Of a stretch of DNA of 64,000 nucleotides, positions 5,880 to 36,317 are shown piece by piece (the stretch's first letter is position 1; each line of letters begins with the position of its first letter). The stretch covers positions 18,758,539-18,822,538 of the forward strand of contig OY987248.1 of assembly GCA_963920765.1 (NCBI GenBank), written 5' to 3'. The notes beneath the pieces are model-generated. The model saw nothing but the letters and a program-made list of their open reading frames with translations, was not told the origin of the DNA and searched no databases. The position numbers and the translations under genes were made by a program. The stretch comes from Ulota crispa (Eukaryota; Streptophyta; Bryopsida; Orthotrichales; Orthotrichaceae).

Positions 5880-6700
5880 GTCCAAAAAGATTTTCAAAAG
5901 ATTTCAAAAACAAACCTAAACTATTGTACTAGCTTTTTATTAAAAATATTTTAAAATATTTTGATGAATTACAAAAAGATTCCTGAAGGACTCTGATTCG
6001 GTCTAAGAGATTCTATTTCAATAAATATTTTGAAGTACTTTAACAAATTTCATAAAGATTTTAAAAGATTCTCAAAGATTCCAAAAAGGTTCTTGGAAAT
6101 TTTTAGAGATTCTCAAAGATTTTTAAAATTTCAAAAAAGATTTTCAAAAGATTCCCAAAGATTCTTAAAGATTCTCAAAGCTTCTCAAAGCTTCCAGAAA
6201 GATTCCAAGATTATTCTTAAAGATTTTCAAAAATTTTCAAAAATTTTCAAAATTCCTAGAACATTTCCAAAGATTCTCAAAGATTCCAAACTATTCTCAG
6301 AGATTCTCAAGAAGGTTATCAAAGATTCCAAGAAGATTCTAAAAGATTCCAAAAAACTTAAAAAGATTCCCAAAGATTTCCAAAGATTCTCAAGGATTCC
6401 TAAAAGATTTTCAAAGATTCTCAATTGTCTTGAAACATTCTCAAAGATTCCAAAAAAACTTGAAAAGATTCCCAAAGATTTCCAAAGATTCTCAAAGATT
6501 CCTAAAAGATTCTTAAAGATTCCAAGAAGATTCTCAAAGATTCTAAAATCTTGAAAAGATTTTTAAATATTCTTAAAAATCCAGAAAAGATTCTCAATGA
6601 TTCCCAAAAGATTCTTAAAGATTCTTAAAGATTCTTAAAGATTCTTAAAGATTCTTAGAGATTCACAAAAAGTTCCCAAAAGATTTCCAAAATATTCCAA
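5880..6700 (-). repeat. Expanded degenerate tandem repeat (AAAGATTCTC units)
   Basis: Dozens of imperfect copies of a 9-11 bp unit close to AAAGATTCTC, reverse complement of the array at 1745-2095. It carries a 174-codon stop-free frame rich in Lys, Phe and Ile that follows from the repeat composition and is not taken as a gene. Confidence 0.85.
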
Positions 6701-6855
6701 ATTTTTTGTTGATTTACATAATGGTATTCAAACCAACAGAATGTATTTAGTTTTTTACAGAATTTTGTTAAATTAGTCAATTAGCGTGGGCAAGTGCCCA
6801 AATCAACAAGAAACTATTGGTTTTCTATTGTTTTGGACGGAGTTTTCTACTAGTG

Positions 6856-8600: not shown

Positions 8601-8823
8601 CATAACATTGTTAACCAGCAGAAATCCTTCCCCCCCGGGTGGAGGAATAATGCTCCCCAGATTCCTGGGGTGATTTGAGTTATAATATGTTTCGTCTCAT
8701 TGGCCGGGCTGCCAGCCCGGCCAATGAGAAGAAACATATTATAACTCAAATCACCCCAGGAATCTGGGGAGCATTATTCCTCCACCCGGGGGGGAAGGAT
8801 TTCTGCTGGTTAACAATGTTATG
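8601..8823. mobile_element. Near-perfect hairpin element (X family, copy 1)
   Basis: A 223-bp palindrome begins CATAACATTGTTAACCAGC and ends with its complement. The arms are about 111 bp long with only one mismatch that I can see. It is flanked by TG on both sides (8599-8600, 8824-8825), consistent with a 2-bp target duplication. Two further copies (37172, 59063) share the 19-bp terminus and an internal ATAATGCTCCC-type block. There is no open frame of its own. Confidence 0.85.
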
Positions 8824-9248: not shown

Positions 9249-9944
9249 TTAGAGGTATTTGGCAAACCACTCAATCATGAGCTTGTGAGCCTCGGACGCA
9301 TTCTCCACGGCGATCTCGTTTTTCTCGTCATAGCGAATGGTCCACCCGTGCTGCACATCAGGGAAGATCTTCACAAAGCTCTTCAAGTCGGTGCGCGATG
9401 CCAGAAGCTCCACATACTTGTCGACGCCATCGCTGGGCGCTGCCAGGACGCAGATCGGCACGGCCACCTCCTCGTAATCAGAAACGTGGATACCAGAAGG
9501 GTGACACTGCACGATGGCCTTCACGTCCTTCTCCTTGGCCAGCGAGACCACCACTTTGGCGCCCCAGCAAAACCCTGCGGCTCCAATCGAGCTGAAACCC
9601 TTGTCCTTGAGAGCCTCCACCAAAGCCTGCGTGGTTTCCAATGCGTACCCCGTGGGAGAGTGCTTCGCCATCCATTGCCTCAAGTCCCCGCCCGTGAAGC
9701 TCCCCGAGAAGACATCGCCCTTGATCACGTCGGGTACCACCGCGAGGTAGCCGGATGCTGCCACTTTGTCCGCGAGCTTGCGCAGCAGCGGCGCCTTGTG
9801 GCCGAAGATGTCGCTGATGAGAATCACCGCCGCGGTTGTGGAGGAGCCCGTGGTGTACACTTGGTGGCCCGACAGCGTCTCCTCCTTGCCCTGGAACTCG
9901 GGCGTTGCTGGAGGCGCGGGCGTGCAGCACTCTTCCGTCGCCAT
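9249..9944 (-). CDS. Dienelactone hydrolase family protein
   Basis: A 231-aa alpha/beta-hydrolase of the dienelactone hydrolase family, single exon and probably cytosolic. The nucleophile elbow is GFCWGAK with Cys126 (the family uses Cys in place of Ser). A candidate acid Asp172 lies in APSDGVD and the catalytic His199 in QHGW, giving the Cys-Asp-His triad in the usual order. The frame is open further upstream to an ATG at 10121, but I chose the ATG at 9944 because MATEECC starts where family members start and the extra 59 residues look like translated leader. In plants such proteins are often labelled endo-1,3;1,4-beta-glucanase-like; their substrates are mostly unknown. The coding region is far more GC-rich than its surroundings. 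Confidence 0.9.
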   Translation of the reverse strand: MATEECCTPAPPATPEFQGKEETLSGHQVYTTGSSTTAAVILISDIFGHKAPLLRKLADKVAASGYLAVVPDVIKGDVFSGSFTGGDLRQWMAKHSPTGYALETTQALVEALKDKGFSSIGAAGFCWGAKVVVSLAKEKDVKAIVQCHPSGIHVSDYEEVAVPICVLAAPSDGVDKYVELLASRTDLKSFVKIFPDVQHGWTIRYDEKNEIAVENASEAHKLMIEWFAKYL

Positions 9945-10261
9945 AGCCTCCAAATTGGGTATGGCAGGCTCCTGCAAACCACGCAAATTGGATGCGAAGA
10001 GAAACACACAAATGGCGAGAGGTGGAGCAGGAGATTTAAGTGAAGTGAAGGAGCAGCGGGGATTGGAGAGTAGCAAAAGAACGTCCCCCCCGCACGGCCC
10101 TACCACCAAGCCCGTCCCCAAATTGTGGGAAAGGATCGGGCGTCGTTTCCGGCGACTCGATCACCGCATGGCTGGTAAGTTGTGCGGATTCACAATCACA
10201 AGGGCGGTGGTGGCGAATTCAAGGCGGTGTTCAGGGACCTTTCGTCAGAGATCACGTTCAA
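9945..10261 (-). other. 5' flank of the dienelactone hydrolase gene
   Basis: GC-rich sequence upstream of the chosen ATG, likely leader and promoter. An alternative in-frame ATG lies at 10121. No TATA box is evident. Confidence 0.4.
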
Positions 10262-15069: not shown

Positions 15070-18000
15070 ATGGGGAACATTCGGAAGCTGGAACCCTTGA
15101 GCCCCGTGCCGGCCGACATCGACGTCGCCAATTCCGTGAAGCCGCTGCACATCTCCGCCATCGCCGAGGAGCTCGGCTTGAAGCCCGAAGAGTACGATTG
15201 CTATGGCAAATCCAAAGCCAAGGTACACCACAGATTGATCGGCTTATGTATTACGATCTTAAGTTTTTTGTATTTCCTTCGTACTCCCCCTGTACGAGGC
15301 GTGGTTTGAAATTTGGGTAGATCTGATTGCATTGGTGGTTTGCTTTTTCGGTATGTACTCTCTTGTTTTTGAACATTAAATGCATATATTTGGGTTTGAT
15401 GAAAATGCAAATAAGCTACGTAAGGCTCTGCTTGAGCCAAGACACGTAATCCAGATTCCTTTTCTTTTGCAATCGTGAGCTCATGTTATGTTTTTAAAGG
15501 CGAGTGTGGCTCATATTAGAATTTCTTATTGGCTCAATTGCATTGGAAGCATTTGAACTGAGTTTTCCAATATTTGAAGGAATGCTCTCCCACTGGAAAA
15601 AAATGTGGTAAGAATTGCGAGTGATAGAAAGGAAGCCGTTGTGGGCAGCCAGCGAGCATCCATCTGAAAATAGCCATCTCTTTGCTCTTATTAGCCTGCC
15701 AGCTCCTGCACTGTTGATGTCTCCGGCCTTACCTTTGTGAGACCTATCTAAGAAAAGCTTGTTTTGAGTAACATACGTTGGATTGTGTATTTGGCATGCT
15801 TAGAATGAAAAACTACTGTAATTGAACATTATCACATGGATTTCTTGACCTTGTGAAAGCTGTAACAATGCTCGTATCTTAATTTTCTAACTGAACAACA
15901 GCATTAGATAAATCAATTTTTTTTTATAGGATTATGGTTTTATGAGTTGGTTGACAATGACATTCTGTGGTACTGTGATTGAGTTTTGTGTACTTGAGAA
16001 ACTCCACGAAGCTTTCTGGGCAATCAGGGTTAATCGCCCTATGTATGTGGACTGTTTCATCCGTTGCTCTGTTCGTCGAGAAGCAGTATTGCTTACAATG
16101 CTGGCTCCTGGAGATATTGATTTCGTTGATCCACATTGTTTCACTGGGGTCGTATGAGGCTTATGATACATGCTTACAGTACTTTGTAAAGTTTTCTCAT
16201 ACGAATTAACATGTGTCTATATATGCTGAAGATTTTAGAGTATGATCTGGGCTATCATTGGATCTATGTCAACAATGTTTTAGTTTCGTTTTTTTTTTCC
16301 ACCCTATTGACTTGCCTTGTGTGATATTGCAGGTCCTTCTCTCCACTCTGGACAGGCTAGTAAGCGCACGTAATGGATACTATGTAGTTGTTGGGGGGAT
16401 TACGCCTACACCTTTAGGAGAAGGAAAGTCAACCACAACTGTTGGACTATGTCAAGCACTTGGTGCTTACCTGGGGAAGAAGGTGTGCTTAAAAGCTCTT
16501 GCTTATCTTAGTTCAAGTTAGTCACTTCGATGTTGCCTGTTTTCATCAGCTGTTGACGTGAATATGTGAAGTAGCATAGGCATTGATCTTACCACCCAAG
16601 GGCGCATGTTTATGCTGCATGCATGTGGGTGGGTTTGCCAGGTGGTGACCTGCATAAGGCAGCCAAGTCAAGGTCCCACATTTGGTATCAAAGGTGGTGC
16701 AGCAGGCGGGGGTTACAGCCAGGTCATCCCCATGGATGAGTTCAACCTTCACATGACAGGTGAACAACGAAGGCGATTAGAAAGAACAGTTGGTTTCAAT
16801 ACAAACTCAGTGACTGCATTTTGAGCAGAGCCTGTTTCTGCAAGTACGTGTGGTAAATGCTAGCTAAGTACAGTATATTATCCTTTTTTTTTGCGTGATG
16901 GATCTATCTCTCACTGGCTCATTGCTACTTTTGCTCGACAGGTGATATTCACGCCATCACCGCTGCCAACAACTTGTTGGCCGCAGCTATTGATGCTCGC
17001 ATGTTCCACGAGGCCACACAGAAAGACAAAGCTCTTCTGAGCAGGTTGTGTCCTGCTGACAAGGACAAGAAGCGTAAGTTTGCGAAGGTGATGCTGAAGC
17101 GTTTGAAGAAGCTTGGAATTGACAAAACCAACCCTGATGAGCTGACACCTGAGGAAGTTGAGAAGTTTGTGCGCTTGGATCTCGACCCAGCGTTGATTAC
17201 CTGGAAACGAGTTCTCGACGTAAACGACCGCTTCCTGAGAAAAATCACTGTGGGACAAGGGCCAGAGGAGAAGGGAATGACGAGGGAAACCGGGTTTGAC
17301 ATTGCTGTAGGGAGTGAGATCATGGCGGTCTTGGCTCTCACGACCTCCATGGCGGACATGAGAGAACGACTGGGGAACATGGTGGTGGGAACCAGCAAGG
17401 GAGGAGACCCTGTGACCGCGGATGACTTGGGCATAGGAGGAGCACTCACTGTTCTCATGAAGGATGCAATTCATCCCACGTTGATGCAAACGCTGGAAGG
17501 GACCCCTGTTTTAGTGCACGCGGGACCCTTCGCCAACATTGCCCATGGAAACTCTTCCGTTATAGCAGATCAGATTGCCCTCAAGCTGGTTGGACCGGAT
17601 GGTTTTGTGGTCACAGAAGCTGGTTTCGGATCAGACATTGGCGTGGAGAAGTTCTTCAACATCAAGTGCCGGTATAGCGGGCTGACACCGCAGTGTGCTG
17701 TCATTGTGGCCACTGTAAGGGCGTTGAAAATGCACGGTGGCGGTCCTGCAGTCGTTGCAGGAAAGCCTCTGGACCATACCTACAAGACGGAGAACGTTGA
17801 GCTTGTGAGAAAAGGTTGCTCAAACCTTGTGAAGCATATTGAGAATACTAAGACGTATGGTGTGAATGTGGTCGTTGCTGTCAATGCTTTTGCTACTGAC
17901 ACGGAGGATGAGCTTCAAGCCGTGAAGCAGGCTGCTCTTGCTGCTGGTGCGTCGGACGCCGTGATCTGCACACATTTTGCTCACGGAGGGGCTGGAGCGG

Positions 18001-18833
18001 TATTCCACTAGTCCCATATCCTCCTCTAATCTGCAATTGACTCTTGGCCTGTTTGTGCTTTCCCCCTTGAGGTCCCAATATTTGTCTTTCTTTTTCTGTA
18101 CCTGGCTTTGGAAGAGGTAAATAACTGAGTACATTCGATTGTGTTTATGTTCAGGCCGAGCTTGGTAAGGCTGTCCAGAAGGCTTGTGAGCAGCACAATG
18201 GAGAATTCAAGTTTCTGTACCCACTCGACATCAGCATCAAGGAGAAAATTGAAGCGATTGCAAAATCGTACGGTGCAGCTGGAGTTGAATACTCTCCTGA
18301 GGTAAAGATTTTTACAAGCTATGGCTTTGATTACGTATAAGTCCTCTATCCAATGGTTGAGTTGCATGAAGCTGGGAAAACTGACTGGCAAACCGCTTTT
18401 GTAAATTTGGGTAATAATGTAAACATTGTCGATAGTACTCCATTTTTTATCCTTGTTTCTGTGAAGGTTTTTTTCTTTTGAATACCTGAAACCATCTTGG
18501 CAATGAGCTCTGATTTATGGTGTGCATCTTTTGCTGAATATGTTTTGTTAATGGCAGGCCGAGAAGCAGATTGAAACCTACACAAGACAAGGTTTCACAA
18601 ACCTGCCCATCTGTGTTGCCAAGACTCAATACTCGTTCTCAGACAATGCAGCTGCTAAAGGTGTACCGACTGGCTTCATCCTGCCCATTCGAGATGTCAG
18701 GGCTAGTGTGGGCGCAGGTTTCATCTACCCATTAATCGGTAGCATGAGCACCATGCCAGGACTCCCAACTCGACCCTGTTTCTTTGATATCGACGTGGAC
18801 CTTGAGACAGGTATGGTTTTAGGGCTCTCGTAG
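15070..18833 (+). CDS. THFS: Formate-tetrahydrofolate ligase (10-formyl-THF synthetase)
   Basis: ATP-dependent ligation of formate to tetrahydrofolate, giving 10-formyl-THF for C1 metabolism (EC 6.3.4.3); usually cytosolic in plants. Exons: 15070-15222, 16333-16482, 16642-16759, 16942-17999, 18155-18301, 18558-18833. All introns are GT-AG, phases agree, and the result is 633 aa with no stop, the usual length for the monofunctional plant enzyme. Landmarks: the N-terminus runs [19 protein letters not shown]; the ATP-binding loop TPLGEGKST is at residues 77-85; the KGGAAGGGY block is at 118-126; the C-terminus ends in GLS as in plant homologues. I chose the ATG at 15070 because MGNIRKLEP aligns with known starts. 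It is convergent with the LCIB-like gene, about 1.1 kb apart. Confidence 0.96.
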
Positions 18834-19915: not shown

Positions 19916-22900
19916 TTAAGCCACCACGACCTTGTTGCCTTGTACTTTGAGCTCCTGTTTCTTTCCCTTGGTAACAACATACGACGTCACTGCAACAAAA
20001 GAATATAGTACAAAATGTCAGCAGATTTGGTAGATTGGGAGCACTTAACGCACTTAAACATTTCAGTATTATGAGCTGCAAAAGGCTTGCGTAGGTAATA
20101 TGCATAGCTCTTAGAGCATCCGCACTCTTGCACGCAACCTGGAGCACTCAAAAGCAAGTGTAAAGGGTGCATCCACAATCACGGGCTCACTCAATTCTCT
20201 TCTGTCCCACCCTTGTCCTCAAGTAGGTACAAGCAAGCATTGAGAGCATATCACAGAAGACAAGTGTTGAGCTTCATTCATGAGCCTCTTGTGTCAATCA
20301 ATCAACAATTGATTGTCCTATACTTGGGCATGCTAAAGATTCATCAAATCCGAAATGTTCCGAAATGTTCCAATGTTTGAGCTACAATTAAGCAAGCCCT
20401 GTCTCTTATAGTGTGTTGACTAGTTTGCAGTGCTCTGGCAGTATTGTTGAGTGTGTGTGGGTGCGGATGCTCTTAGAACAGTAATCCTTACAATATTTTC
20501 TTCTATTTTTGAGAATCTAGTCCTAGAATTATAATAAATCTACAACTTCGCACATCGAAAGTGTATCAGTAATACTCACACATTCATAAAAAACTGGATG
20601 GGTAGAGAACAAACCAGGGGCAAAACAGTCGATGACAGACTCCGGAGTCCACAAACCGCCCTTCGCTCCGGCGTGGATTTGAACGCCTACAATGACAGCG
20701 TAGTCAGCCTTGGCAGGGTCGACAGTCTTACTGATGTGATCTTCCAGAGTGTGGGAGATAGCCTAAACCCCAACCACCTATTAGATTTCCATAGACCCCT
20801 TTTTCTTGGGAAACTTGATAGAACTAAAAATTTCCTACATTCAACCCCCCTTTGATTTATATTGCGTTAAATCAAAACCCTCTCAAAACTAGCAAACAAG
20901 GACATGTTAAACAAACTCCATTGAAACAAGAGAAAGGCCTCAAATTTCTACTGAAATACTCCCTCTGTCCCTCTAAAAAGCTCCATAAGCTCCATATCAG
21001 ACGCATTTCTTATACCACTAAAAAGCTCCCTTTTGCTGATTTCAAAAGCTAAGAAAGTGTTTGCCATGTTCAATGATCTCAGAAGGGCAAATTAATTAAG
21101 CAATTAGAGAGCATTCCTCTACTAGCAAGCTTGACCTTGCCCATATGAGGTACTATTGTTGCTACTAATCTTAAAATCATCAATAATGAGGAACTAGCAG
21201 CATGCACAAATATTATACTTTTTACATGAAATTTGGGTACCCAAATAGTGACATCAAAATTGCAGATTTTACATACATTTGGTAGAGGGTATATTGATTC
21301 TAGAATGCATGTGCCACTTGCACAAAGACTAAAACACAGTTAATCCTTTGCAAGGAAGCTTTTTGAACGTTTTTTAGAGGGACATAGGGAGTAGGTTCTT
21401 AAAAAGGACAGGGTTTACAACTAAAGAGAGGACTGGTACCTGCGCTGTGAATTTGGTCAACTGGAAGTTCGTCGGGTGAGCGGGCGGTTTCTGTACATTC
21501 AAAGCAAGCCTTAGGGATTAGAGCAGTACCAATCAGGACTTTATGAAGTCCTCAAGAATTACGCCTTGCATAGTACAGAGCAGGTTGCCGATCCTACGCT
21601 GCTAATAATTTACTGCAAAGGGCAAAAAGGGAATGCTATATCATGAGCGGGGAGTCTGGATTGTTTTGGTCAGAATACTAAATTTCACCTATAACCATGA
21701 ACTGATGTACTTAGGGCTTTATAATCGTGCTTTGTACACTTTCATCTGTCGAAAACTTGCTGTTTTTTTTCGTTTTTTCATTGACTTTTAGGCTCAGAAT
21801 CAGTTCCCACTCACATGATCTTAGCTTAGCGCTCACCGCTCACAAAAGATTGTCGTCAAGGGCAAGAAAACCTGGTTATGAACTTGGTTTTGCCATATTT
21901 GCTAGAGACTTACCTTGGCGAAGATCTGCCACTTCAGAGTATCGTATTCCACGTTATCTTCTCGAATGACGCCGTCTTGGTGAGCGCCGGAGCGAATCTC
22001 CTCCAACAGAACCTCAATGGCGCCACACGCGTTCGACACTCTTCTGCCCCTCTCGCACCACGGGGCCTTCTGTGCCTGCCACTCTCAAATCCCCCCACCT
22101 TCAGTCCAACACTCCAACTCTCCTTCACTCCCCCACTTGCTTAATCTCTGCACTCAAGGTCCCAATTTTATCTCTTTGAATGTGTGATGAGGAATGCTAT
22201 TATACCATGGGCGGAGGGATTAGTGAGCTGTGAGCCTGGATTTTTTTTGTCAGAATTCTAAATTCATTTATAATCGTGTACATGTGGCCTACGTTTGCGC
22301 GTTTTACATTTTCTATCTCTTAATTAATAACTTGCTGTTTTTTTAGTTTATTCACTGATTTTGAGCTTAGAATTGGTTCCTGTTAAAATGTTGACTTGCC
22401 ACTCATGGCTCACCGTTTTATGCTCACAAAATAGCATCGTCAAGCATCGTCAATGTGTGATGGGAAATGCTATACCATGAGCAGGATCAGAATACTAAAT
22501 GCATTTATAATCGTGCATTTTAAGCTTTCTACCCCTAAAAAAACTTGCCGTTTTTTAGTTTCCTTTGATTTTGAGCTCAAAATTGGTTCATGCTCACAGA
22601 ATCTTGGCTCGCCACTCATGGCTCGCCATTTGACGCTCACAAAATAGCATTGTCCTGTGTGATGGAAGTCTCAAGCGTGCAGAAAATTTGTGTTTTAGAG
22701 AAAGTCATAATATAGAAGTCTGAGAATTCATCACTAAACTGCTACTAAACAGCTTCTGTCAAGATTAGGAGAGGGTTATGATGCGGCAAATATGACTGAG
22801 GTTTAAGTTGCTTACCGTTCTGGTCCACAGCTGTGTGCGTAGCTCCAATGAAAACATCTGCATCCACATCAACATCAACAGTGTCAAATTTGAACTAAAG

Positions 22901-24641
22901 AACATCGGTGTCAGATTAAGAAGGGTATTTCCATAGGTTTAGAAATTGACATATTTTGGTGTAAGTGTCGCACACTTGGAGCCTGAAAGGAAAAAATGGC
23001 TTGGCAAGCAGAAAAGTGCCCATTTAATCGAAATTGCGCTTGTGAGTTCAACAAACTAGACAAAGGACAAAACTTTGTACCAAAAGCAGAGTTTTGGTTA
23101 TTAATTCCACACAGTTAATTGAATCGTGAAGTTGGGAATTGGCATCTACGTTGTAAACCCAAAGGTAGATTGCTGATGGCTTACACTTGTCGCGTCCATC
23201 AGGATTGGTTGGAGCGTGCGAAGTGGCAGCAATGAATCCCAGAGTGCCTGCGGTGACGACGCCGGAGATACCCGAGAGGTTGAAAGTGTGGCCAGAGTGC
23301 TGCAAACACTACCTACTGTAAGCAAAAAAAATCGGAACTCAAAAAGTTTAAAAACTCCATAAAAAAATGCAAGATCTAGAATGAGAGTAGCCGGTTCCTT
23401 ACCTTGTCGAAGAAATGAGAGATGGGCCGTGCAAGTTCGTCGCGACATGTGTTCACCAACACAAATGTGTTATCTCTGTTTCAGCAAATGTTGCCATTAG
23501 CACTAGCTCTACAAGGGCCTGATACCATGTCTTATACAAAGCCGCCGTGATACTTACAGAGCTCAACTTAGTTACCTGTTCTTACACTTGGTTACTTTAT
23601 TTAGAGTTTGAACGGAAATGGAGTTGTTCACTATCTCGTAATTTTAGATTGTATATAAAATTCATACACGCTCGTGCTCCCAAAGTGCTCTTTTTACAGC
23701 TCTATAGCGAACTTCCAATGCACGCAGTCCTCACGTATGTTGAAATGCTTAAAGAGACGCAGATAGTAATCTCTAAATAATCCTAAAATAGAGATATTTT
23801 CTCATTTGCTCCTACGGAATTCCATCACAGATGGGACTTTCAGTTAGTGAGATTGTTAAAGGTTATATTTCATAGATTTAGGGCCAAAATTCAGTTCTTT
23901 CATACATAAAAGTAGCTCAAAATGAGGAGAAACAATGTTACAGTAACGCTCATGTACGTTTCAACATCTGTAATGTCACATCCTTAGTTTCACCAAAAGA
24001 ACCCGGAAGTAAGTTACCCGAAGAACACAACTCAAAACTTACAGCGTACTCTCTCTGATACTCTCTTAATGATTACAAATAGTGGAATGTGATAAGGAAT
24101 TTTGAAAGTGTGAGAAGGATTAAGACCAGGTTCTGGATTCCTAATTTCTAAGGGCGTTAGGTGGTGACAGTAGGTGGTGACATTATAGAGGAATGGATGT
24201 CGTATATAAGGAGTTTGATATTTATAAAGTCACACAGGAAAAACCATTGCAGAGCAGCTATGGATACAAACTTCAGTAACTGCTAACACTTAAAACCACG
24301 GAATGATCAACACTCCGAATTCTGTGCTTGTCATCAACCTCAGTAGTGATCCCAACTATGATTTTCAACTTTAGCTCAAGTGGCTAAAAATACTGCTAAA
24401 AAGTCAAGATTTTCAAATTCAACACTGTGCTCACAAGTTTTTTAGCTGCATGATTTTTTTTGTAGCAATCCTGCAAAATTTAGCCAAAGATAGCTGAGCC
24501 TCACCTCTTGAATCCAAGTCCCTCTAGAGTGTCACGTGCGGCCTCGAAGTAACTGTCCTGCACTAACGCCGTGTCGAAGTACTTGGAGACTGTCTCCATG
24601 GCCTGGGGTGAAGCTTGACGTGCGTAGGCAATCTCTGCCAT
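19916..24641 (-). CDS. LCIB-like protein, theta-type carbonic anhydrase family
   Basis: Exons on the minus strand: 24641-24505, 23475-23403, 23299-23187, 22894-22816, 22075-21914, 21490-21440, 20762-20615, 19989-19916 (837 nt, 278 aa). Family signatures: CRDELARP (residues 56-63), HAPTNPDGRD, VFIGATHTAVDQN, and VSNACGAIEVL. By comparison with LCIB structures, Cys56, His128 and Cys151 would bind zinc and the Arg/Asp after Cys56 form the catalytic dyad. LCIB proteins work in inorganic-carbon handling in algae; activity here is unproven. Oddity: canonical splicing joins exon 3 to exon 4 one base short, and a GGGG run (22047-22050) in exon 5 has one base too many. The frame stays open, but about 35 residues between, including His128, are read out of frame. 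Compared with algal LCIB it is short, with no evident transit peptide. Confidence 0.8.
20114..20472. mobile_element. Tourist-like element in intron 7 of the LCIB-like gene
   Basis: Termini GAGCATCCGCAC and complement, with TTA on both sides (20111-20113, 20473-20475). The first 120 bp match the element entering the window end at 63885. Confidence 0.8.
21630..21857 (+). mobile_element. Miniature element (D family, copy 1), intron 5 of the LCIB-like gene
   Basis: Left end GGAATGCTATATCATGAGC; right end resembles the complement of GACAATGCTATTTTGTGAGC. Interior blocks AACTTGCTGTTTTTTTT and GATTTTGAGCTCAAAATTGG-like sequence are shared with three other copies. Confidence 0.72.
22191..22441 (+). 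mobile_element. Miniature element (D family, copy 2), intron 4 of the LCIB-like gene
   Basis: Same termini and interior as copy 1. Preceded by TGTGTGATG (22181-22189), a 9-mer that recurs before and after copy 3. Confidence 0.72.
22463..22654 (+). mobile_element. Miniature element (D family, copy 3), intron 4 of the LCIB-like gene
   Basis: Shorter copy in tandem with copy 2. TGTGTGATG lies at 22454-22462 and at 22656-22664, consistent with a 9-bp target duplication. Confidence 0.72.
24342..24503 (+). repeat. Dispersed repeat (E family, copy 2) at a splice donor
   Basis: Matches 10262-10430. It runs to within a few bases of the exon 1 donor (24503-24504) of the LCIB-like gene. Confidence 0.6.
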
Positions 24642-25241
24642 CGCTACCACTCCTCTGAAACAAAATTCCTCCCAATTCCCATGTCAAGATCACAATTTTC
24701 ATCACTTTGAAAATTGGTCAGAATCCAAGCAGGCTCTAACAGAACTCATCAAAACTCCCATCGAGACATGTGCTTGTTCAAGTTTGAGCTTTTCATCCCA
24801 TTGCAATTCCTCAAAAGTGTGCAACAGAGGCTGTATAACCAACCTTGGAATCTACGGTAGTTATTGATCAATCTAAATCAACACCTGTAAGCCAAATATA
24901 TGCAGTAATTCTTACGAAGTATGAGCACTTGGAAATATCGAAGCTTTGGGATGCTACAACACCTGGATCTTGTACAGCAATTGCTAGACTGCAACGAAGT
25001 CAGTCAAGCTATGGACATCGATGCTGGTGTCTGAGTGAGATCTCAGGATGAACCAGTCTTTATAGCAACCGACTGGGTCCCTGTAATTGTATAAAACAAT
25101 CTCCTGAGGTTAAATCTCCAGTCCAATGATGAGGCTGGATTATTGTTCTTTGGGAATATTGCCAGGCGATTTTGAGTGTACTTTGTAGGAGGGAAAGTGT
25201 TTATGAGTGTTTTTGAGCAAGGTTGTGGGAGAACAGGTAGT
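24642..25241 (-). other. 5' region of the LCIB-like gene
   Basis: The coding exon with ATG at 24641 is preceded by a good acceptor (TTTGTTTCAG at about 24657-24666). A matching donor, CTTC-GTAAG, occurs near 24917. An upstream exon is therefore likely; its frame carries stops, so I read it as 5' UTR. Confidence 0.4.
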
Positions 25242-25420
25242 CAGTGTATTGTCAGCCGGTGGAAATTGTTAAAAATCCAGTTGAAAATTCAAAGCACCGG
25301 CTAGAAAACCAGTTAAGTTTTCAAAAAGTGGAATTATCCAGTGCAAGTTTGTGAAATTACCGGTTGAAAATGGAAAATGCCGGTTTTCAGCAGGTAAAGC
25401 TAAATTTTTTCCTGAAGGCT
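25242..25420 (-). repeat. Dispersed repeat (F family, copy 2)
   Basis: Reverse orientation relative to 12440 and 50030. Edge TAGTCAGTGTATTGTCAGCC; interior GAAAATGCCGGTTTTCAGC. Confidence 0.6.
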
Positions 25421-27242
25421 TATTTTTTTGAGAAAAGAGAATCCTCTGCTCTGATTTTTAAGAGATGAATAGTTTGGGGTGAATAAGTGTCCAGATACAT
25501 TGTGTGTAACGTAGGGCCATTTGTATGGGTTTCATAGAAATTCGTATTCAAGCTACATACGGTGCACCTCGTTTTCCAGGTGCTGCAGGATTCACTGGAC
25601 ATATTTGTTTCCTCTTTTCTTGGAAGTCTTGAAATGGAAGGGAGAGAGGAATAACGGTGGGTTTCACACTTGTGAGTTCGTCCAATGCAATTCCCAGTGG
25701 GGCATTGTTTTGGTGTTGGTAAGGTAGGAGGCTCAAGAACCGGGCATCTACGGGCTGAAACTGAATTTTGGGGAGGTGAAACTTCTTGAAAAAGTAAATT
25801 TTCCTTGAAAGACAAGAGGAATTGACATCTAATCCAACTTATTTCAAAATTTTTGAAACTTTATGAAATCAGATATGAATTTTGAAGTGGAAAGGTCATA
25901 GGGCTCTAAAATAATGCACCTTCTTAAATGTACATTGTTTGTACATTACTGAAAACTCTGAAAAATAACATGTACGTATTGGATACATTTCAGAAAGTGC
26001 ACAGTTTTAGTGCCTGCATGGTTTATGAGCTGACTGACTTAGTTTTTGACAGATTTTTGCTGTCCTAAGTCCATTGGCTCAAAAACGGAGGGATTAGTCA
26101 CCATTGATTAAAAATTTGTCAAATTTGTCGCTAGTCTAGCAATATTTTGCCAGAAAAATGCTCTAATTCCCACTATCTAACGTTCTTTTTTGGGATCTAT
26201 TGCATGGGTAGTCACTTCTTTGGCAAATTTTACATTACTCATTTTCAACCGGTTTTTTTAGAGTATGCATTGGACATTCTCTCTGTCTTGTACTATAATT
26301 AGAAACTTTCTAATTTAGTTGATTTTTATTCAATTGATTGTGATTTTAGTTGGTATTTTTTTACATTTTATTCATCTGACTTTCTATTGTATTTTGGATC
26401 TCCTTACACATTGGTTACATCTCTCCTAGAATAAAACTTCAATGAAGAATGGGAATTTGTGAAGTAGAAATAATAGTCAATAAGAGCACTTCTCCATGGA
26501 GAAGATAGGACTTCCATTTTTTGGGCAGTGGAGAATGGAGGATGAGTTTACCTAAATAATGGTGATGTGGTAAGAAAGCAAGCTACATTTACATACTCAA
26601 TCAAACCAATTGAGATCTCCAACTATAAGGAGAGTGAAAGCAAGAAGTGCAAGATAAAAAAGAGATACGCACTGATAAAAACTTCATGTGAGAAAACTTC
26701 TTCACACCCGTTTGTCTCCTTTAAAGGTGAAGAATTTTTTCTCAATCTTTGCAAAATGAAGCCTCCACAAATCTAGGAGAGAGTACCATGTTCCCATTCT
26801 TTAAAGATTGAGAATGAGGCAAAGAAGGTATGACTGCTCCTACTGCCAAAACTCAAATTTTCACGTCACGGTTTGAGAGGCTAAAATCAGGTGCCACCTA
26901 TGGAAAAAAAAAATCTCCTTTTCTTTCGATCTAACCTTAAAGTAAAAACCGTCTAATAACACAAAGTCGTTATTTGTTTTATTTTGTTGACGACATAAAT
27001 AAAGAATTTTAGTAGGAATTTGAAGCTATAACTACTAGTAGAGGACGAATTCGTGACTTTGTTTGTAACCATGCTCTTAGTTGTTTTGGACATGAATATT
27101 GGTACAAATCAGGATTTACTGCAATTGTTGAGAACACACGTTCTTTTAGATAGTTTTTACCAATTGTTTACATGGTTGTCACATGGTCGTCGTATTAGGC
27201 ACAAGACCGCTTGCCCATCCGTCCATTTTGCTTGTCCAATTA
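25421..27242. other. AT-rich intergenic sequence
   Basis: A 131-codon frame on the minus strand (25420-25815) shows no domain. Nothing else recognised. Confidence 0.4.
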
Positions 27243-27565
27243 GGGCATCTCCACTGGTCCTGGCTCTTTCAAAGTTTTTCATCTATTTTGGCAAAGTCTC
27301 AAGCCCCTTGATTTCCCATTTGATCTCCACCCATGTTCTTTGAAAAGGTAATTTTACACTCCAACACACCCCATAAATAAGCAGTTGACCACTTATTAAA
27401 GAAAGTAGAGTATAAAGCTCATTAAATTTGGGGGTGAATAGTGAATGAATAGCTTGAAGAGTGTCTTGCTAGACTTGCTAAAACAAAATGTTTGAAAGTG
27501 TTTTGAGTGAGGTCTCAACACTTTTCATCCACTTTGAGCAAGTCTGAGCCATCGGCGGAATGGGC
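27243..27565 (+). mobile_element. Tourist-like element
   Basis: Starts GGGCATCTCCACTGG after TTA; ends near CATCGGCGGAATGGGC followed by TTG, so the duplication is imperfect. Homologous in reverse to 12037-12318. Confidence 0.65.
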
Positions 27566-27911
27566 TTGCTTGACGTTAAATTAGTGTTTGTTGATTTATT
27601 AAATGGGCAACCAAGACACGTCCAAATTTGATTGCGGACACAAGCACCAGTTTTGACCTTTGTGCAAACTACACAAAGCATAATATGGTCGCTTTTGCCC
27701 ACAAGTTTGCACTTTTGCAGCAAAGTGTTACTTCAAGCAAAATTTGGCTATTGGACAGCACAAGGAGACTCACAAAACAGACTTCATTGACGGATATATC
27801 TGTCCTCTCTTGTTTTTTTGGGACAATTTAGGATTTTTGACCTAAAAAGGGATCAATGAAATTATCCATGTTTTGACTTCATGTTGACAACAATGGGTGT
27901 CACTAGCATGT

Positions 27912-27978
27912 ACAAAGTATTACTATGAAAGAATTGATGTATTTTCAGGCCATCAAAAGCCTAATGCTTCCGTATTGC
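27912..27978 (+). pseudogene. Captured splice-acceptor and exon 8 fragment of the ASCC1-like gene
   Basis: About 65 bp match 41916-41981 closely, spanning the end of intron 7, the acceptor and the first 30 or so bases of exon 8 (shared GTATTTTCAGGCCATCAAAA and GCTTCCGTATT). Similarity stops abruptly at both sides. It lies just past the stop codon of the transporter gene, so may be in its 3' UTR. Mechanism of capture unknown. Confidence 0.75.
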
Positions 27979-28014
27979 TGGTTCGCCCTTCAAACTAAGA
28001 ATGGAATCCAAGTT

Positions 28015-31000
28015 CTAATTAGGATGGGAGGAACATGTGAGCAGGATCTGCAGTACCGTGGCTGCGTGAGGGACGACCAGAGGAAGTGCACAATCTATAG
28101 AGTTATCCACGAGCGCAGTTGTTGTAGTTATGTCGACAGATTTGACTGTTTCGAGGGACGTGCTATTAACCAAGTCAACTAGAGAAGTAGCGGATGCAGC
28201 AGCCATGGCCATATGATCCATGGCGGTCTGTGCAGCTTGCTCCAGGAGTTTGGCGATGTCCTCTGCCTCCTCAATGGCTTGCACGATGTCGGAGCCCAAG
28301 GTTGTGATGGCAGACTCCAGCATCCCTGTGGCGATGTCCTGCCACTGGTCAACCAGTGCAGCAGGAGTGCCCATGCCAGGGAGTTGCAAGGAGGCGTTGC
28401 TGACCACGTTTGCTGCGTGCTGCAGTGTCACGGAGGTGGCGATGGCGCCTGGTGCTGCCGAATGGAGCGAGCCCGACGGGGCTGGTGGAGTGCTCGTGAG
28501 CAAAGTCGACATGACCAAACTTTTCACGAACAAAAGCTTCAACTTAGCTTCCACCAGGAGTTGCTTGGCTTGCGCGGCGTAGTAGGGAAACTTGAGTTGC
28601 GAGGTGATGATTGCACCTTGCACATGATCGGCCACGGGCTTTGATGGCTGATGTTTTTGAGCTTGAGGATCTGATGGTACAGCAGGACTACAACCTGAGG
28701 CTTCTATTGGTGGTTGAGGTTGAGTTCTGGTGGCCGCGTTTTGTCGTGGTCTAGGTAGAGCACTAGTGTCATCTTGCTTGCTGACCAACTGTGCAAATAA
28801 GCTCGCCACGAGGATCACCAATCCTCCAACAATTGCCGAGTCATCGAGAGTGTCGCCTCGCAAAGAGAAGGACAGGAACGCTCCCCAGATGGGGATGGTC
28901 GTGTTGACCATCGTTGCAGTAGAAGCCTGAACTGAACGGAGGCCATGGATTTCTAGCCAGCTGCACAGTCCTGAGCATACAAGACCCGTGTAGATGAGAG
29001 GACCCCAAGGCAGAGACTGCAACTGGCTCACGTACTCCGTGATGGTTGTGTTTCCGTGAAGGACTCGAGAAAGCTCCCACACCAAACTGAGGGCGGCAAC
29101 GGTGCCGCACTGGATGGCTGACAAATCGAAAGCCTTGAAGCTCTTGCTGTGCGCTTCGGATCGGAAGATGTGGAGGGCATAGACAGCAGACGCGGCCAAG
29201 CCCCAGACGTCTCCCACTTGAGGTAGGGATATGCCCTTCCACCCCAGCCCTTCCTCCTCCAAAACTCCCATCCCTGCACTTGTTGTAAACCAAAATCATT
29301 GATAACTCTCTAAACCATGGCTGCCAGCGAAAAATACAGGTTATGAAATACATAAAAACAAAACAAAAGAAGAAATAGAACGGAACATAATGCATAAAGA
29401 ACAGTGAATGATCACAATGTATTAGATGACTATTCTTTTAAAATTCCTGCAGGGCATGATAAGGAGAGCGACTCCTGACCCAAGATGACTACTCTAATAC
29501 GTTCCAATGGCTGAACAAGAATAGTGTATCAAAACGTCTACGCCTGTTGTACATTCTAATAACTGCCCATTATTTTAGTAAACTTTGCTCCAAAGGTTTG
29601 AAACTCCGTGATTTTGAAAGAGCAGGGAGTGCGAGTAAGTACGTTACAGATCGACAATGACAAGCTATTGAGTTGGTTGTACCTGATAGTGCCACGAGAG
29701 ATGCAATTCGTGTGATGTTGCGAACAGAATTTCGGCCTGCACATAATTCCATGATGGGAACAAATATCACCTGCCATTCATTTCAGACAACCACGAAGTA
29801 TCAGATCAGATCGTGTATAATTTCGTTGCAATATGGATGCATCGGCAAATAAACAAGGGCTCATGAATGGACGATGTGAAATCAATCGCCGGCAGATTAT
29901 GGGGTGCGTAGTAGTACTTACTGTGAAAGCAAACAGAAGCGGCGCATCGCTGGAAGCCCCGCCATCGCCACAAGTTTCAAGGACCGCCGCAGCAAACAGC
30001 AGCCCTCCCAGCTCAGTGCCGGCTCTCAGAAGTGCGGGGTTTTTGTTTCGACCTAATAAGACATGGCGTAGCGCTGGAAGGAAGACCAGCAGAGCGGATG
30101 AATATCGCACAAGGCTGCTGAGGCTGGCTGGCAGCCCCGGAGTCGCGTCGGTTGCGAACTTAGCCGCTACAGTGCTGGAGCCATAAAGGGCGGCGAGCAC
30201 ATTGAGCAGCATCAGGCCTCTTGTTCTCCTCCTTCCCAGTTTCTTTGCCCACAGCTTTGGTAAGAAACTCTGTTGTGCATCGTCCGACGTTTCATCTCTG
30301 ATTGCTGAAGCTCTCTCCGAGTCAAAATTCTTCTGAGAAAATGGTCACGCAGCTCTTAGTCATACGTTTACATACAATTGCTTCTACAAATCGCCGCAAC
30401 GTAACACATTATCATTTTCATGAATAATCACTGACCATTTTAATGCTATTTTGATGAGAGATGGACCGTGTGGATGCAGTGACGACCAAGTCATGATCGG
30501 AACCGAAGTTGGCACAACGAATTTGCTGAGTTCAGGGAGCATGCTTACCGGCAATGGCGCTCCCCCTGGCAATGAATCAGCAGAGATGGTGCTGTCGATC
30601 TGGGGATTGCATTCTTGCATTCGTGCAGCGAGTTCTTTCAAGGTACCGGTCTGACTCTGCATGTGCAGCCTCCACGCGTCCTCCCAACAATGTTCATTCT
30701 CGGATCCACTCTCGCTTGCTTCGATCAACGAGTCGCCGCTTTTCAATTTGCGCCTCAATACCAGATCCGAGTAGGGAATCACATGCAGCCTTTCAACAGT
30801 CGCTCCATCGGCCACGGATCTACTCTTTGAACTCTCTTGATTTGTCGACGGATCTGCTGCGGGCCTTCGTCCGTTGAGGCTCAAGCTCCTCACGTAAGCT
30901 AACGAAGCGCTGCCTTTCCTGCTTCCAAAGCTGGTATGCGATGCCTGCACTGAACTTGTGAGGTGGATCCTCCGATCGCCATCGCCATTGTTGTGACGAG

Positions 31001-33344: not shown

Positions 33345-34121
33345 TCACCATGACCTATCTGACTGAGTCCAAGTTTGGATGCGCGACAAGTGTGGAAGAC
33401 ATTCATTAGGAGAAAATTGTGATAAAACAAGTGAGGGTGTACCGGCGAATAAGATTTTGTAGGAGCTTCTTTGTGCATCTACAATCATGTGGCTAATGAC
33501 CGGAGCTCTAATGCCAACACTCACATAAGGAAGCTCCTTCCACTTGTTGGTCATGGGGTTGCAAACAAGGATCCCTCACCCATCCAAAGCCCCAAAGCAA
33601 CGCAATCTTCCATCAGCTACCCCAAAGCAAAGCAGTCCTCCATCAACTACCAACAAGTTCCAACTAGAGTGTCTAGCATGCGATGGAAATTACAATTCCG
33701 GCATGGTAATCCATTTCCGCTCTGCAAGGTTGTATGAAGACCATGGCACCGCTAGAGAACCTCTCCCTTTCCATCCCACTCGAGGAGCATAGAATGGTCC
33801 CCACGCTCCACAAGATAAGAGGCACATCTCTTGGAACTGCAAATAGTGGATCAAAGCATTCCATCTCTTGCAAACCGCACGCATTTGGAAGACATCTGGT
33901 AAGGGAAGAAACGCCAAGGCCCATTCCAAAATGTCTTTGGGCAGCAACCTCCATGGCAACGACTCCTCTTGCTCCTCATATCTGAATAATTTGGATACCA
34001 TCTTTGGAGCATCACCACCATGTGGACCTAACCCTAATCCTGGACCACAGTTGTAGTGCACATTGCATAAGAACATGGAAAAACCGAAACTCAGAAGCTT
34101 TATATTAAATCTAGCAACCAC
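33345..34121 (-). pseudogene. F-box (kelch-like) protein pseudogene
   Basis: One reading frame encodes an F-box near residues 55-100 (LPKDILEWALAFLPLPDVFQ, then AVCKRWNALIH), followed by the aromatic spacer and the WITMPEL stretch typical of plant F-box/kelch proteins, then DGGLLCFG and NPMTNKWKELP. The frame is broken by TAA (33690-33692) and TGA (33576-33578), both in phase with the rest, so this is a nonsense-inactivated copy rather than a spliced gene. Between the stops, a 30-bp unit is tandemly duplicated (encoding VDGGLLCFGV then ADGRLRCFGA). The kelch region is short of full length. F-box proteins serve as substrate adaptors of SCF ubiquitin ligases. A truncated 143-aa F-box product could still be translated. 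Confidence 0.75.
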
Positions 34122-34595
34122 AGAAAAAGCCTAATTGTTGCACTTATATAACAAAGACTTAGAAGTCTTCTCCACTCTCATCACTCATTATTAATACACT
34201 CTTCAATTTATTCTTAGAATCCGTCATTGTGTGTTCATATCTGATTGGACAACTTCCACATAAAATGTATGAACATATGTGTAGTAATCAATCAGTTTGT
34301 CCCCCTTGAGGCAGTATCATTAGGGAAGATGGTTTGAAAACCTACCAGCCTAACTTTACCTATTTCAGATGTTATCAATAGCTGTCCTCACACCAAAGTA
34401 CATCACATTGCAACTTCAAGACCGGTAATCTAATATGTTTCCAAACTTGACTCGCCCCTAGAAACAAAGCTTGTTAAATGCATTCTATCTCTTAATGTAT
34501 ACTAGCAAGTGACTACGAATCTCATAGAGGACTGATTTCCAGATTGTTCGTTGTTCTGGTAAGGTCATTGTTTCATTATTACCCCTCGAGACACA
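34122..34595. other. Intergenic sequence
   Basis: AT-rich, nothing recognised. Confidence 0.4.
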
Positions 34596-34716: not shown

Positions 34717-35316
34717 CAGAGTACTTCCCTCGCTTTTTAGCACAAGTGATAAAATGGAAGAAGTTAGGGTTTCGATCACCAGCTGGTTGCGTACCTTGGC
34801 TACATCCAAGAAAGTTTGAATGATCCACAGCTACAGAACTAAGTCGACCTAGCCAAGGGCGATCGATCACCACCACGTCGGCACAAGAACGGAGGACGCT
34901 CTCAATTCTTTAAAACACAACAGCAGGCAACACACTTCACAAGCAATGCCATCTGTACAAAAAACCAGGCAGGGGAAACAATCGTCCTATATCATCATGA
35001 ATCATGGTTTCTTTGTCTAAATCACAAGCACGTTCATCATGTCAGACGCAATCCTACGCGCGTTCAAGAAACAACACATACACTAGCAAATCTTGTAGTT
35101 CGAAGTGTCTTGTATTCAGCTCGGACTTGTCTTTCATTCTAAAAAATGATTTGAAAGTGCTTGGACCGGTCAACTTATTCCGCTGTGGACGTTCCTGACG
35201 AAAGGTTATCCATATTGCAATGTGAGCTAGCTAGCTACACTGAAATTGACTGAATATTGCGTTTAGGTTGCCCCAGACTAATTTCTTGACAATTTACACT
35301 ATATAAATAATTATTT
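34717..35316. other. Intergenic sequence
   Basis: No gene or repeat recognised. Confidence 0.4.
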
Positions 35317-35534
35317 ATTGCTGCTACATTAACTTTCATTAATAATTACTGCAATAAACTAATTTTAATGAGCATACCAACAACAATGACGTTGTTGAAA
35401 AACAAATTAGTTGCTTTTACGTTGTATTGCTGCTACATTAACTTTCATTAATAATTACTGCAATAAACTAATTTTAATGAGCATACCAACAACAATGACG
35501 TTGTTGAAAAACAAATTAGTTGCTTTTACGTTGT
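35317..35534. repeat. 109-bp tandem duplication
   Basis: Two identical or nearly identical 109-bp units, each starting ATTGCTGCTACATTAACTTT and containing a short palindrome AACAATGACGTTGTT. Their identity suggests a recent event or an assembly duplication. Confidence 0.88.
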
Positions 35535-36317
35535 AAATCATGTGAAATTCTAGAATTTAAAAAATTGCATGTGCCTTCAAGTGGTCAAACAATGAGTCAT
35601 GAGGTAACTTTCCAAGATAAGGCAACCTAAATGCAATATTCAGTGTACATAGCAAAGACTTGGACAAGCTTGGAAAAGCAATATTGGACAATTCCATTGT
35701 GAAGTGGTAAAGAAGCATTATGCTTGATATTGCAACAGTAGCAGTTGGATGCGCAAGCACAAGCTTATCTGCATCTTCCTTACGTAGCAGCCTGGCTATG
35801 GCGTTGAGGGGGGCTTGCCCAAAGTGCAATTTGTGCGTGCAAAGGGTGAGCAAGCATGGACGCATCACGCATGGTGAATTGGTGATGGAAGTCATGAATG
35901 TGCCACCCACTGCGTTAATGATGAAGCGACACATGTCTTCTCCGAAATTGTTGTGATTTCTATTTAGATTTTGGGAGTTGGTAAATGGGAATTGATGTCT
36001 GTACAACACTAGGCTTTAGACTATTTTCCAACACCTACTATATACGTTCAATCTATATATATATAAAAGAATCCCATTTTGGATGGAAAGGTGAGAGTTT
36101 GAGGGTTGCACTTATGAGTTGCATTCCGTGTATATAGGAGTAAACAATAATTTAACAAGTTGCACCTTTTACATTCTCTTTAGCCAATAAAAGTGAGTAA
36201 CTCCATGATTCATGTGGTAGTAAACAATAAAGTATAATGGATCACGGGAAGTTACACCACAACACTTTCTCTCAACCAATTGGCCCCCACGGGGCCACTT
36301 GGGCCTTTAGGGGCTAA
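35535..36317. other. Intergenic sequence with an unassigned frame
   Basis: A 150-codon frame on the minus strand (35557-36009) is the longest here. It has mixed hydrophobic composition but no motif I know. Function not assigned. Confidence 0.35.

Follow-up and report, generated by a model that had tools for sequence, protein, structure and literature searches.

An intact nuclear LCIB-like gene in a moss, encoding a putative core-only carbonic anhydrase

Among proteins of solved structure, the closest relatives of the product of the gene reported here are LCIB and LCIC of Chlamydomonas reinhardtii, stromal proteins of the CO2-concentrating mechanism, and LCIB is regarded as a candidate part for engineering such mechanisms into crops (PMC9614477). 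Among land plants, an LCIB gene with conserved zinc and catalytic residues has been described from the hornwort Anthoceros, and the passage of PMC8075897 on this gene states that LCIB is confined to hornworts and absent from other land plants, a distribution taken there as a hint that hornworts use it for their pyrenoid. A statement in PMC7027989 instead reports LCIB/C in non-angiosperm land plants. A full-text literature search, which covered open-licence papers only and so leaves room for published reports elsewhere, found no title on a moss LCIB. Here we describe an LCIB-like gene in a window of 64,000 nucleotides, the whole stretch of DNA analyzed (positions 18,758,539-18,822,538 of contig C7, in an assembly of 274,817,297 bases and 157 contigs). 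The gene is intact, real, and nuclear, and its host is a moss, which sharpens the finding because of the hornwort-only report of PMC8075897.

The assignment to the LCIB family, put forward in a first-pass annotation made from the letters alone, was borne out by profile and pairwise searches with the predicted 280-residue protein. PF18599 (LCIB_C_CA) was its sole Pfam-A match up to an E value of 0.001, with an E value of 4e-32 and 111.8 bits against a curated cut-off of 25 bits, over profile positions 2-209 of 223; NCBIfam yielded no relative. Among the chains of solved structures, phmmer found eight distinct sequences passing an E value of 0.001, headed by Chlamydomonas LCIC (5b5x, E value 1.1e-29) and LCIB (5k5w, 1.1e-27) and followed by three versions of PtLCIB4, 6kfs, and two versions of a 264-residue LCIB-domain protein. 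The landmarks named at first pass are all present: CRDELARP from residue 56, HAPTNPDGRD from 98, VFIGATHTA from 110, and SNACGA from 139. Alignment with four PDB-derived sequences gave 20 invariant columns, and the addition of eight bacterial relatives (13 rows) left 12, namely, C56, D58, E59, F76, G88, G91, A94, H98, P100, H116, C142, and G143, every one of which the moss protein retains. We take C56, H98, and C142 to be the Cys-His-Cys zinc ligands. R57 is present as well, a residue common to 7 of the 13 rows, one of these being an engineered mutant. By sequence, the protein is firmly placed among the LCIB/LCIC (theta-type) carbonic anhydrases, and homology to 5b5x and 5k5w predicts that it adopts the family fold.

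The core of the moss protein aligns with LCIC over residues 17-229 and with LCIB over residues 6-246, at 35% and 31% identity, respectively, over the aligned fragments, and CRDE, H98, and ACGA are kept; unlike these stromal proteins, it has no evident transit peptide. The diatom protein PtLCIB4 (5b5y, 5b60), of the same family, matches over moss residues 15-154 at about 26% identity over the fragment, but its natural form reads CSDE, the CRDE form being an engineered S47R mutant. In a scan of bacterial and archaeal genomes (one per species), 83 stretches fit a search pattern and at least eight encode relatives, a lower bound since the patterns were short. These eight come from Planctomycetota (L001), Bdellovibrionales (L002), Actinomycetota (L003), and Balneolota (L004 to L008), and the three that were checked in Pfam all belong to the family. 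Their open frames of 208 to 262 amino acids, the shortest ended by a contig end, are similar in core length to the moss protein, whereas they are intronless, share only 18.5 to 31.8% identity with it, and in five of the eight carry S at the position of R57. No relatives were found in viral contigs, in plasmids, or in phages, the last having been searched with one exon, as DNA only. The first-pass description of the protein as much shorter than algal LCIB and lacking an evident transit peptide holds in part: the N-terminal extension is absent, but the protein is not shortened, as the catalytic core is covered and the bacterial frames run to 208 to 262 amino acids.

The gene lies on the minus strand from 24641 to 19916, with eight exons joined in frame across seven GT-AG introns. 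Exon 1 (24505..24641) opens with the ATG at 24641 (MAEIAYARQ...), upstream of which stand in-frame stops. Exon 2 (23403..23475) encodes C56, R57, D58, and E59 (CRDE); exon 3 (23185..23299) encodes H98 (SHAP) and the GRD motif; exon 4 (YVFIGATHTAVDQN, 22816..22857), whose 5' neighbor has a weak donor, encodes H116; and exon 5 (21914..22083) encodes SNACGA with C142. Exon 6 (21440..21490) and exon 7 (20582..20762, AISHTLED...DYAVIVGVQIH...) are both joined in frame, the latter with a match to solved structures, and exon 8 (19916..19989), also matched in the protein search of the genome, carries the stop codon that ends at 19916. The coordinates and exon number given at first pass were exact; the length was not, as the protein has 280 rather than 278 residues, a difference that we guess to come from another splice choice at one border.

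The least certain border of the gene model is the exon 5 acceptor (TTTGAG), which has no pyrimidine tract, and three of the donors are weak, scoring 0.4, 0.8, and 1.2 with a simple plant-like matrix. To test the exon 4/5 region, we compared four versions of it by their scores against one common set of 12 reference sequences. Against LCIC, the canonical model reached 105.8 bits, above the chosen exon 4 combined with a short exon 5 (97.1 bits) and above a frame read through FKFDTVDVDVDAD before exon 4, with a long exon 5 (87.5 bits) or a short one (98.2 bits); no GT-AG intron can connect the FKFDTVDVDVDAD frame to exon 3. The canonical model scored highest for half of the references (LCIC, LCIB, L001, L002, L003, and PtLCIB4), and we retained it although the other six, which are more distant (6kfs and L004 to L008), slightly favor a non-canonical short version, by 0.5 to 6.1 bits.

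The plant-like genome recognized at first pass proved to be that of a moss of the Tetraphis or arthrodontous group, a conclusion that we reach because a missing plastid gene, a mitochondrion-like contig, and the ranking of one plastid protein, taken together, point there. Contig C157 (112,500 bp) is the plastid, with rpoB, ycf66, psaA, psaB, psbC, psbD, atpB, rbcL, petA, and others named by recognition; we guess that it is a moss plastome in which one inverted-repeat copy was collapsed. Its PsaB protein scores 1696 to 1700 bits against 8htu, 6l35/7xqp, and 7ksq/7kux, five entries that are presumably from Physcomitrium patens, then 1662 against 9lut/9luu and at most 1618.5 against the rest. In the part of C157 that was read, rpoA does not occur between petD (ending at 78162) and rps11 (beginning at 78351), where 188 bases separate the frames. 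According to the relevant passage of PMC4035505, Tetraphis and all arthrodontous mosses have lost rpoA, whereas such a loss is not reported for the remaining major lineages of mosses; that of PMC5877570 describes the loss as typical of moss plastomes. Contig C156 (104,638 bp) is mitochondrion-like: its first 6 kb contain group II introns and a piece of cox2, the latter named by recognition; sizes given in print for moss mitochondrial genomes include 105,340, 104,239, and 107,730 bp. A hornwort, a liverwort, a fern, and a streptophyte alga were set aside as hosts on the same three grounds. As a separate observation on the plastid, an Rfam match to IsrR (192 bits; L029:1737-1923, minus strand) lies antisense to psbC and probably arises only from the kinship of psbC and isiA.

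The gene sits at 18.78 Mb of contig C7; contigs C1 to C6 are each at least 16.8 Mb long, from match positions, C8 to C11 measure 21.2, 19.1, 15.8, and 6.3 Mb, and C12 only 18.6 kb. Two dispersed repeats lie in its introns. One, in intron 6 (20957..21395), has 23-nucleotide inverted ends that are 96% complementary and at least 39 further copies, 85 to 88% identical, on C1 to C10 (40 scored among 2,643 candidates), and the other, in intron 4 (22505..22655), is likewise represented on C1 to C10. Because these intron repeats recur on C1 to C10, the gene belongs to the host, and contamination is very unlikely; furthermore, judging by how far the repeat copies have diverged, their insertion, and hence the residence of the gene, seems to be old rather than recent. 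Intron 7 contains another element (20109-20477) with 17-nucleotide inverted ends (TCTTAGAGCATCCGCAC), 94% complementary, and ends like these recur at other places in the window. When the assembly was searched with the protein, the seven matches at an E value of 1 or below were all exons of the LCIB-like gene; a second LCIB locus was thus not found, by a search that covers only copies recognizable exon by exon and that a distant paralogue could escape. A PF18599 profile search of the genome gave zero matches, missing even the known gene, because it also proceeds exon by exon.

Taken together, these data lead us to favor, by a modest lean, the reading that the moss carries an intact nuclear gene for a core-only LCIB-type carbonic anhydrase, a housekeeping and probably cytosolic enzyme that works without a pyrenoid. 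In this scenario, C56, H98, and C142 would bind zinc, the D58/R57 pair would position the zinc-bound hydroxide, and the enzyme would interconvert CO2 and bicarbonate. Without a transit peptide, it would work in the cytosol, where its task may be to supply bicarbonate for carboxylases, to balance pH, or to recapture respired CO2. To our knowledge, mosses do not have pyrenoids, and we therefore propose a housekeeping role rather than CO2 concentration of the algal type. Hornworts do have pyrenoids, so that the setting of the moss gene would differ from that of hornwort LCIB. Several observations weigh against the proposal. The protein is divergent, with 35% identity even to LCIC over the aligned fragment and an end branch of 2.5 to 3.5 changes per site; one neighboring gene has a higher GC3, as given below; Chlamydomonas LCIB itself is reported to have no carbonic anhydrase activity in vitro (PMC9614477, PMC8825250); and the sequence upstream of the ATG offers some room for a further exon.

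The last point bears on the location of the enzyme, for which the cytosol is our better guess than the plastid. The same enzyme might instead be given a plastid transit peptide by an unrecognized upstream exon and be stromal, as algal LCIB is (PMC9614477), an alternative that we regard as somewhat unlikely. At the annotated start, no transit peptide is evident, although weak candidates for an upstream exon are present. The alignment with LCIC begins at residue 17 of the moss protein, stop codons appear 14 codons back in frame from the ATG, and the context of the ATG (GCGATGGC) is one that we take to be favorable for a start. Nevertheless, a good acceptor-like sequence, TTTTGTTTCAG, ends 13 bases before the ATG. 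In a scan of 24663-28500 for ATG-starting exons in the right phase, one candidate scored above 1, and donors of all phases stayed at 4 or below; without a threshold, the same scan gave 41 in-phase combinations of an ATG and a donor. The nearest of these candidates, MGVLMSSVRACLDSDQFS, has a donor score of 0.1 and requires a 51-base intron, which is short for a plant. The scans leave room for a transit-peptide exon because the weakest donor of the gene itself scores just 0.4, and the larger number of upstream candidates at the relaxed threshold weighs somewhat against the cytosolic part of our proposal and in favor of the plastid alternative.

With respect to origin, the moss lineage might have received the gene from bacteria, independently of hornwort and green algal LCIB, which we consider unlikely. 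In the main tree of 10 rows, from which PtLCIB4, 6kfs, and L006 were left out as fragments, the best topology places the moss protein with LCIB and LCIC of Chlamydomonas, though with support of just 70/68. A grouping of the moss protein with the planctomycete protein L001 was not rejected (p-AU 0.353), nor was one uniting LCIB, LCIC, and L001 without the moss protein (p-AU 0.176), and in the first tree, which included all three fragments, the moss protein was not placed more finely than within a group of five rows (99/98). L001 also comes near LCIC in its score against the moss protein (102.4 versus 105.8 bits), and the absence of LCIB from land plants outside hornworts, as PMC8075897 has it, would agree with a separate acquisition. 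The tree of 10 rows fits vertical descent and bacterial origin alike, and the two could not be told apart by it. Seven introns and the old dispersed repeats argue for long residence, however, and the report of LCIB/C in non-angiosperm land plants (PMC7027989) speaks for inheritance. We hold tentatively, with a little under an even degree of belief, that the common ancestor of land plants already had LCIB and that some mosses have kept it as a pyrenoid-independent carbonic anhydrase.

The protein might also be catalytically silent, with a structural or regulatory role. Its long branch and the inactivity in vitro of Chlamydomonas LCIB, which has the same CRDE motif (PMC9614477, PMC8825250), are compatible with such a role, but the moss protein retains all residues invariant in the 13 rows, C56, D58, H98, and C142 among them, and R57 is present, so that we judge silence improbable. 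That the gene is unexpressed or decaying, as the three weak donors and the exon 5 acceptor without a pyrimidine tract might be taken to indicate, is very improbable given 280 codons free of stops and frameshifts, seven GT-AG introns, and the retention of 12 of 12 invariant columns. An origin of the gene from an epiphytic alga or bacterium that contaminated the moss assembly is scarcely credible, for although foreign-looking small unplaced contigs exist, the gene lies within C7 and its introns carry repeats common to C1 to C10.

Pfam searches on parts of the surrounding sequence identified three neighbors: a dienelactone hydrolase (DLH) gene (9249-10160, minus strand), a formate-tetrahydrofolate ligase (FTHFS) gene (about 15070-18833, plus strand), and an EamA transporter gene (28015-30344, minus strand). 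Coding GC/GC3 values of the LCIB-like gene (53.5%/61.6%) are similar to those of the FTHFS (52.6%/57.5%) and EamA (55.1%/58.8%) genes, in keeping with a native position of the gene; those of the DLH gene (60.1%/79.3%) are higher. The window further contains a degenerate array with a unit of about 10 bp (AAAGATTCTA, 6054-6701), which produces long spurious open frames; a near-perfect inverted repeat with two 111-nucleotide arms, 99% complementary and 1 nucleotide apart (8601-8823); an F-box open frame (33690-34130, minus strand; PF00646, E value 7.3e-07) with an early stop and, by eye, a decayed-looking continuation after it; and an exact tandem duplication of 109 bp (35316-35535; 2.0 copies, 100% match). 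Elsewhere in the assembly, two small unplaced contigs look foreign, L024 (G000:C20), with bacterial Ig and TSP3 repeats, and L015 (G000:C100), in which Vps35 stands next to a histidine kinase at 47% GC.

In conclusion, a known family has been found in an unexpected host, and a disputed statement on land-plant evolution becomes directly testable. The moss gene supports the statement of PMC7027989 over the hornwort-only statement of PMC8075897, and an intact moss LCIB breaks the correlation between LCIB and the pyrenoid that a hornwort-only distribution gave among land plants. If the ancestral reading is true, the presence of LCIB in hornworts would be no sign of their CO2-concentrating mechanism, and the claim of its restriction to hornworts among land plants would be wrong. 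With a land-plant LCIB in a pyrenoid-free plant, the basic role of the enzyme could be separated by knockout from its role in CO2 concentration.

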